Of a stretch of 64,000 nt of DNA, positions 12,314 through 43,929 are shown piece by piece. Every line of letters begins with the position of its first letter. Within the stretch, counting starts at the first letter, position 1. Location of the stretch: positions 2,356,001-2,420,000 of the forward strand of contig NZ_PHUJ01000003.1 of the NCBI RefSeq assembly GCF_002813375.1. Reading direction: 5' to 3'. Source of the stretch: Pseudonocardia alni. GTDB taxonomy: Bacteria > Actinomycetota > Actinomycetes > Mycobacteriales > Pseudonocardiaceae. Below the pieces are notes generated by a model. It worked only from the letters and a program-made list of their open reading frames with translations, was not told the origin of the DNA and ran no database searches. The position numbers and the translations under genes were made by a program.

Positions 12314-13801
<1,488 letters not shown>

Positions 13802-13818
13802 GGGGTGGGTGCGCCTCC

Positions 13819-13893
13819 TCAGGCGTAAGAGTCGTACTCGTCGGCACGACGGGTGCGGTCCGACCGGGAGGAGGAGCGGCGTACACGGGTCAC
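13819..13893 (-). CDS. 24-residue leader ORF between riboswitch and sahH
   Basis: A small ORF starts at GTG 13893 with a very strong ribosome site (GGAGGGAGG, about six bases upstream) and ends at TGA 13819-13821. That stop overlaps the GAGGAGG ribosome site of sahH (TGAGGAGG), so the two genes look translationally coupled. The product starts [16 protein letters not shown] and ends ADEYDSYA: a basic Arg/Ser-rich half and an acidic end. No known family is recognised. It could be a regulatory leader peptide or a real small protein. 19 of 24 codons end in G or C. Confidence 0.6.
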
Positions 13894-13915
13894 GGCGTCC
13901 TCCCTCCTCGTCGGA
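13859..13915 (-). promoter_or_regulatory. Hairpin masking the leader-ORF ribosome site
   Basis: On the minus strand TCCGAC (13910-13915) can pair with GTCGGA (13859-13864), and inside it the purine-rich ribosome site (13899-13909) is complementary to CTCCTCCTCCC (13866-13876). The leader-ORF start codon would sit in the loop region. It follows the riboswitch core by three bases, so it is a candidate expression platform. Folding was judged by eye only. Confidence 0.45.
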
Positions 13916-13918
13916 GAC

Positions 13919-13996
13919 AGGCGCCCTTTCTCGTCCGTGCCGGCCGGGCCCGAGCGTGGCGGCCGGTGACGGCCGCTGCAGCGCCTCTCGGCGCCC
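13919..13996 (-). ncRNA. S-adenosylhomocysteine (SAH) riboswitch
   Basis: On the minus strand the elements of the SAH riboswitch occur in order: a P1 arm with CCGAG (13987-13991), the conserved GGCGCTGC core, a P2 hairpin GCGGCCG-TCAC-CGGCCGC, then CCACGCTCGG closing P1 (CTCGG at 13950-13954, extended by GGGC/GCCC), and the 3' segment GAAAGGGCGCCT. AGGCGC of the core pairs perfectly with GCGCCT (13919-13924), the pseudoknot typical of this class. The Ralstonia metH/ahcY riboswitches have the same CGAG-RRGCGCUGC ... CCA-GCUCG ... AAA-GGCGC layout. Known SAH riboswitches raise expression when SAH accumulates, which fits sahH. Confidence 0.82.
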
Positions 13997-14054
13997 GGCG
14001 ATGTCGCGACCTCCATGGTTCCGAGCCACCGCGGGGGTGTCAACTCAGGGGTGA

Positions 14055-43623: not shown

Positions 43624-43655
43624 GCCCGGCCCCGGGGCGCCCGGCCCCGGACATG

Positions 43656-43720
43656 CGTGATCCCCGGGCCGCACCGGGGTGCGTCACCGAACCGGACAGA
43701 GTTCGGACCCGGGGATCACG
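43656..43720. terminator. Branched hairpin after tetR (terminator or RNA element)
   Basis: A perfect 13-bp outer stem, CGTGATCCCCGGG (43656-43668) with 43708-43720, encloses two smaller hairpins, CGCACC-GG-GGTGCG and CCGAAC-N8-GTTCGG. It starts 33 bases after the tetR stop. The three-way shape is more elaborate than a normal terminator, and there is no T-run. Confidence 0.6.
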
Positions 43721-43806
43721 GGTGACCGTCGGGAACTCGCCGGCACCACACCGGCTTCCACGACCGCCTCTCCGACGGGTTCTCCCCGCCGGAGCAGAAC
43801 GTGGTG

Positions 43807-43845
43807 CTAGCTGACGGCCACCTCACGTGTCCTGCTGTAGCTCAT
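43807..43845 (-). CDS. 12-residue ORF with strong ribosome site (orphan)
   Basis: ATG 43845 begins the peptide MSYSRTREVAVS, ending in TAG at 43807. AGGAGG (43857-43862 on the minus strand) precedes it by 11 bases, a perfect but slightly distant ribosome site. No gene on the same strand follows it, so it is not an obvious leader peptide. It may be a small protein, part of a small RNA, or chance. Confidence 0.35.
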   Translation of the reverse strand: MSYSRTREVAVS

Positions 43846-43929
43846 CTGCTGGACCACCTCCTCTCCCGTGTACCGACACCGTACGCACGGGATCGAGCGG
43901 TGCGCCACCGGAAAATCGCGGCCCGGTCC

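Follow-up and report, generated by a model that had tools for sequence, protein, structure and literature searches.

Locus

The window, a stretch of 64,000 nucleotides from Pseudonocardia alni, carries on its minus strand the S-adenosylhomocysteine (SAH) hydrolase gene sahH, with its ATG at 13801. Upstream of it follow one another a likely leader promoter, a putative SAH riboswitch aptamer, a predicted hairpin that encloses a Shine-Dalgarno sequence (SD1), and a short candidate upstream open reading frame (uORF) that ends against the Shine-Dalgarno sequence of sahH itself (SD2). Coordinates are collected in Table 1.

The window copy has P1 and P2 enclosing a conserved core and forms all 6 of 6 pairs of the pseudoknot that joins the core to a strand lying 3' of P1, as in the SAH riboswitch family of Rfam (RF01057), and it stands, also as in that family, in the leader of an SAH-cycle gene. 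Every element that the sequence-only reading had named (P1 with its extension, the core, P2 and a perfect 6-bp pseudoknot) was located in the minus-strand sequence.

Leader features were compared across the genus. Sixty-four distinct sahH leaders were collected, of which 53 bear the aptamer; the 11 that lack it enter no leader count, and three genomes (G019, G034 and G047) whose only sahH lies at the end of a contig contributed no sahH leader. In 45 of the 53 leaders a TTGAC motif precedes the aptamer core by 48 to 60 nt, against a background of 0.045 per 110 nt, and in local folds at least 3 of the 5 SD2 bases are paired in 37/44 leaders. Three aptamer-less sahH copies (L047, L074 and L087) belong to genomes whose other sahH copy has the aptamer; L047 is located after metK (tblastn) and L087 after an apparent metK end (by eye).

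Elsewhere in the window, an Ms_IGR-5 sRNA (RF02471) was found at 43650-43871 on the minus strand (75.6 bits; cut-off, 45), flanked by the end of a TetR-like open reading frame (43623) and by a purE-like one (both named by eye).

Table 1. Features of the sahH leader in the window (SD, Shine-Dalgarno; coordinates are window positions)
Feature	Position	Strand	Basis and remarks
-35 element of likely leader promoter, TTGACA	14038..14043	minus	recurrence in leaders
Weak -10-like element, AACCAT	14015-14020	minus	spacer 17; -10 assignment inferred
SAH riboswitch aptamer (P1, P2, core, pseudoknot)	13919..13999	minus	upstream of sahH; covariance models
P1, 5' strand	13987..13996	minus	GGGC 13996-13993, bulged G13992, CCGAG 13991-13987; sequence, pair counts
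Pseudoknot, 5' strand, AGGCGC	13981..13986	minus	sequence, covariation
Core, GGCGCTGC	13985-13978	minus	sequence
P2 hairpin	13960..13975	minus	arms 13975-13970 / 13965-13960; sequence, pair counts
P1, 3' strand	13946..13954	minus	CTCGG 13954-13950 and GCCC 13949-13946; sequence, pair counts
Pseudoknot, 3' strand, GCGCCT	13919..13924	minus	also part of the outer stem of the SD hairpin; sequence, fold, covariation
SD hairpin	13894..13925	minus	-22.3 kcal/mol; 42-nt fold; z -4.0
SD hairpin, outer stem	13925-13919/13901-13894	minus	predicted fold
SD hairpin, inner stem	13917-13913/13907-13903	minus	predicted fold
SD1 of uORF, GAGGAGGGAGG	13899..13909	minus	sequence, fold
uORF	13819..13893	minus	GTG start (13893), 24 codons, stop TGA 13821-13819 adjoining SD2; recurrent start and stop positions
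SD2 of sahH, GAGGAGG	13814..13820	minus	inside small predicted hairpin 13812-13825
sahH, S-adenosylhomocysteine hydrolase, 495 aa	12314..13801	minus	PF05221 (E 2.3e-143), PF00670

Aptamer identity

RF01057 matched the window at 13950-13991 (29.9 bits; E 0.001 in the 501 bases searched), covering model positions 5-47 and stopping short of the pseudoknot strand; the sole further Rfam match in those bases was to a microRNA family (18.9 bits; cut-off, 55). This copy is the best of 9 RF01057 matches (E ≤ 10) in the 6-Mb genome. The family's gathering score of 37 bits is a threshold set for annotation rather than a feature of the structure, and a default Rfam search of the window does not report the copy. 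The sequence-only reading had proposed this covariance score as a check, with a score below threshold to count against it, and taken literally the check went against the claim. We do not regard the low score as a refutation because 11 sahH leaders of the same genus reach the cut-off, because a model independent of the window's clade recovers the full structure, and because the pseudoknot covaries.

That model (R2), built from 36 genus leaders with the window's clade excluded, gave the window copy a full-length match (all 77 positions) of 47.7 bits, with a genome-wide E of 1.2e-6; the next-best match in the same genome reached 20.2 bits, which leaves the window copy as the sole good one. The model alignments took 46 and 36 of the 53 aptamer-bearing leaders. 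Of the cells in the alignment of 46 genus aptamers, 95.6% pair, and none of 500 shuffles reaches the observed covariation score. A further alignment of 20 aptamers from the order was picked by hand (5 from the genus plus 15 of the 18 order loci that failed pattern parsing; L203, L229 and L230 excluded) and is therefore enriched in variants. In it, 4/6 pseudoknot pairs and 4/7 P1 pairs change on both sides, every pseudoknot cell with letters pairs, and pairing over the full structure is 97.2%, compared with 30-43% for slid versions of it. Of the excluded loci, L203 (AAAGGTCGCC) breaks one pseudoknot pair, and L229 and L230 are probable protein-coding false positives (by eye).

A chance match in GC-rich DNA was ruled out by the R2 score, the uniqueness of the copy in its genome and the covariation of the pseudoknot. 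Judged from sequence and alignments, the element is almost certainly a genuine SAH riboswitch aptamer of the known class, with family, position, strand and target gene as originally proposed, the last identified as SahH by its two Pfam domains.

Distribution and targets

Within the genus, 56 of 62 genomes have an RF01057 match at E ≤ 1 and 15 have a copy at or above the cut-off; the 15 passing copies comprise 11 sahH leaders and 4 that precede metH. SAH aptamers before metH were seen in the genus at L013, L016, L020, L021, L029 and L033 (MetH match, tblastn). The genus-trained model gave matches at E ≤ 0.001 in 102 of 298 genomes of the order and in 27 of its 66 genera, a count that includes three genomes of this genus (the source of the model's sequences) and at least two matches that look false. 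The Rfam model, run on the same 298 genomes, matched 52 at E ≤ 0.001 and 20 over its cut-off, so that the cut-off misses most of the order copies found by the genus-trained model. The aptamer is common in this order, and the earlier remark that actinobacterial examples are less often described does not fit it. In a phylum sample of 296 genomes, 6 had a match at E ≤ 1e-4, all of them from this order. A cmscan run at gathering thresholds on 20 of the 80 named sahH loci gave no match, although a pattern search recognised the motif in 4 of those 20 (L093, L101, L106 and L115). Phage sequences searched with the aptamer gave 5 short weak matches.

Seventy order loci were studied, 30 from among the matches listed (one from this genus) and 40 chosen by hand. 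Fifty-two were parsed, with the aptamer preceding metH in 24, sahH in 20 and other genes in 8; 13 of the 18 unparsed loci match MetH. Where metH copies were inspected by eye, the hidden Shine-Dalgarno sequence stood directly before metH. Less usual neighbours were also met with: the aptamer and a Shine-Dalgarno hairpin lie directly before metK in L212 (genome G190; PF00438) and L205 (genome G140; by eye), and the aptamer precedes an adenosine deaminase gene in L201 and L217 (PF00962; adenosine is the other SahH product), class I methyltransferases in L214 and L216, MOSC-domain proteins in L192, L218, L221 and L231, and an FMN_bind_2 protein in L225.

Targets such as metK and adenosine deaminase could suggest that the aptamer binds a ligand other than SAH, for example SAM or adenosine, as could two conserved positions at which all 53 leaders have C and G where the Rfam consensus has G and C (in context, CCAGG to CCACG and AACGG to AAGGG). 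The two deviating positions may, however, be a single swapped long-range pair; the core is otherwise kept, and sahH and metH are the main targets among the parsed loci. We consider a different ligand very improbable.

Expression platform

The predicted outer stem pairs GGCGCCU with AGG-CGCC and the inner stem UCUCC with GGAGG. The full hairpin and the pseudoknot are mutually exclusive because both use the same bases. The partner of the SD1 core in the window and its clade is UCUCC, not the pseudoknot strand, so the window pseudoknot can remove only the outer stem.

Local folds pair 4 or more SD1 bases with upstream sequence in 52/53 leaders; these partners include the pseudoknot strand in 35 (through at least 3 pairs in 22), and 18 leaders have no pair between SD1 and that strand. 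In 43 of the 53 leaders, the native hairpin arms gave a better fold than arms exchanged among leaders whose 5' arms are dissimilar (p 2.7e-5, uncorrected for relatedness), and against dinucleotide shuffles the hairpin has a mean z of -2.5, with 46 of the 53 leaders below -1. When the pseudoknot strands of short transcripts were barred from other pairs, SD1 exposure rose from 0.24 to 0.38 (up in 33 leaders and down in 7 of 53), and with a control block it stayed at 0.24. With 60 nt of downstream sequence, the release of SD1 was not significant (20 up, 13 down of 53; p 0.10). In the whole window leader, blocking the pseudoknot strands did not release SD1 (0.27 and 0.27), because CUCCUCCUCC inside the uORF, with its CUCC repeats, also pairs SD1. 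These folding models thus favour the proposed direction of switching but do not settle it.

The hairpin could instead be an intrinsic terminator that the pseudoknot dissolves, which would make the switch one of transcription attenuation. Outside the genus, a T-run of at least 4 follows the same hairpin in 9/24 sahH leaders (by eye; e.g., L180, L186, L194, L206 and L237), a set in which L106 and L211 are one organism. Against this, just 1 of the 53 genus leaders has a T-run within 24 nt of SD1, and the window reads GGACGCCGTGACC at the T-run position. For the window we find attenuation improbable.

Upstream reading frame

The sequence-only reading had placed the switch in front of sahH. This is correct for the aptamer; the hidden Shine-Dalgarno sequence is that of the candidate uORF, 108 nt before the sahH start (13-313 nt elsewhere, with starts assigned by script). 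It is located in the expression platform, as in a riboswitch-controlled coupled uORF.

Start codons cluster at Shine-Dalgarno spacing: across 48 leaders, offsets 5-12 after SD1 (8 positions) hold 42 ATG or GTG codons and offsets 13-59 (47 positions) hold 43. Stops cluster too: 34/47 leaders have their first in-frame stop at -21..+1 relative to the sahH start (other frames, 2 and 9), and 23/47 have an exact ATGA overlap with sahH (other frames, 1 and 5). Under a start rule blind to the outcome, the uORF stop is near the sahH start in 32/41; averaging over 25 similarity clusters gives 18.5, versus 0.7 and 5.2 in the other frames. The window itself has its uORF stop at -20, with no stop-start overlap, as do its closest relatives, L040 and L041. 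Among the 53 leaders, the searched range holds no start codon in 4 and only CTG in 3, in a frame without a stop near sahH.

A conserved leader peptide was ruled out: across 9 uORF pairs of equal length (a tenth, L026/L034, reads into SahH and was omitted), substitutions number 64, 58 and 57 at codon positions 1, 2 and 3. Frame-preserving indels were not found either, since 5/16 length changes between nearest-neighbour leaders are multiples of three. These comparisons indicate that the genus keeps the uORF start at SD1 and its stop at sahH, and not a peptide.

Outside the genus, 3 of the 24 sahH leaders (L186, L200 and L202) have a uORF candidate that ends in an ATGA overlap (by eye). In a related genus, L187, L188, L191 and L198 have a 16-codon uORF after the sahH riboswitch, with its stop 40-43 nt before sahH; these uORFs are similar in sequence, start with ATG or TTG and end in SSARVVV.

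The drift of the peptide and the indels that ignore the frame would also suit a uORF that is fortuitous in GC-rich DNA, behind an ordinary SAH riboswitch that acts on sahH through mRNA decay, Rho loading or long-range folding. Consistent with this, the hidden Shine-Dalgarno sequence stands directly before sahH in two leaders of the genus (L070 and L081, by the placement of SD1) and in Actinoplanes (L101). A uORF with no role does not, however, explain why starts cluster at Shine-Dalgarno spacing, or why the uORF frame, more than the other two, tends to stop at the sahH start, also when counted per cluster. We therefore hold a fortuitous uORF to be unlikely.

Proposed mechanism

Our preferred reading, to which we give a probability of about two in three, is that an SAH-sensing ON riboswitch controls translation of the uORF and, through the uORF, of sahH; confidence in it is lowered because the pseudoknot strand of the window does not pair with the SD1 core. 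SAH binding, the direction of switching, uORF translation and coupling are inferred parts of this reading.

When SAH is absent, GCGCCU would make the outer stem and the UCUCC that follows it the inner stem around the uORF Shine-Dalgarno sequence, and the leader would be poorly translated, with little SahH produced. As SAH accumulates, it would stabilise the aptamer, and GCGCCU would pair with AGGCGC as the pseudoknot. The hairpin would then be without its outer stem, and ribosomes could initiate at the uORF GTG, terminate at the sahH start or within about 20 nt of it, open SD2 and re-initiate on sahH; ribosomes translating the uORF might also shield the leader from Rho. The SahH so made would remove SAH.

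We also lean towards a wider form of this proposal, in which the SAH riboswitch of most of the genus gates a uORF that drifts in sequence and has its stop held at the sahH start, ribosomes being handed over there, and in which the platform has been exchanged in evolution. The exchange is suggested because sister genera combine the same aptamer with direct Shine-Dalgarno or terminator-like platforms.

Comparison with known systems

In Proteobacteria, SAH riboswitch leaders are described for ahcY/sahH and metH, and metK is described as not being under SAH riboswitch control (PMC4239095, in excerpt). Excerpts of PMC3766115 mention SAH riboswitches in Mycobacteriaceae, and those of PMC2864571 treat SAM/SAH and other motifs. 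The uORF relay was not found as an SAH riboswitch platform in the excerpts of these three papers, nor in the titles and abstract openings of the open SAH-riboswitch literature, outside which most subscription papers lie. The aptamer class is known, and the platform most likely works through a coupled uORF.

The window copy shares with RF01057 the set of P1, P2, core and pseudoknot and a sahH-type target; its pseudoknot is AGGCGC/GCGCCU where the RF01057 consensus has GAGCGC/GCGCUC. Unlike the family, it scores under the cut-off and has a platform that controls a predicted uORF. The Actinoplanes sahH leader L101, the metH leader L169 and the sahH leader L180 have the same aptamer and the same type of hairpin after the pseudoknot strand, but differ from the window in that the Shine-Dalgarno sequence is that of the gene itself or a T-run follows the hairpin.

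The nearest parallel for the relay is Mycobacterium tuberculosis ppe2, where, according to excerpts of PMC11260477, a B12 riboswitch has a coupled, translated uORF. In both systems a riboswitch controls a uORF on whose translation the downstream gene depends (at sahH, by our reading), and the AUGA stop-start overlap of the ppe2 system is the one that recurs in the genus leaders. The ppe2 riboswitch differs, on the same excerpts, in aptamer and ligand and in being an OFF switch, and in the window the uORF stop precedes the sahH start by 20 nt. If the proposed mechanism is true, the sahH leader would be the ON-switch counterpart of the B12/ppe2 uORF, which would suggest that riboswitch-gated coupled uORFs recur in actinomycetes.
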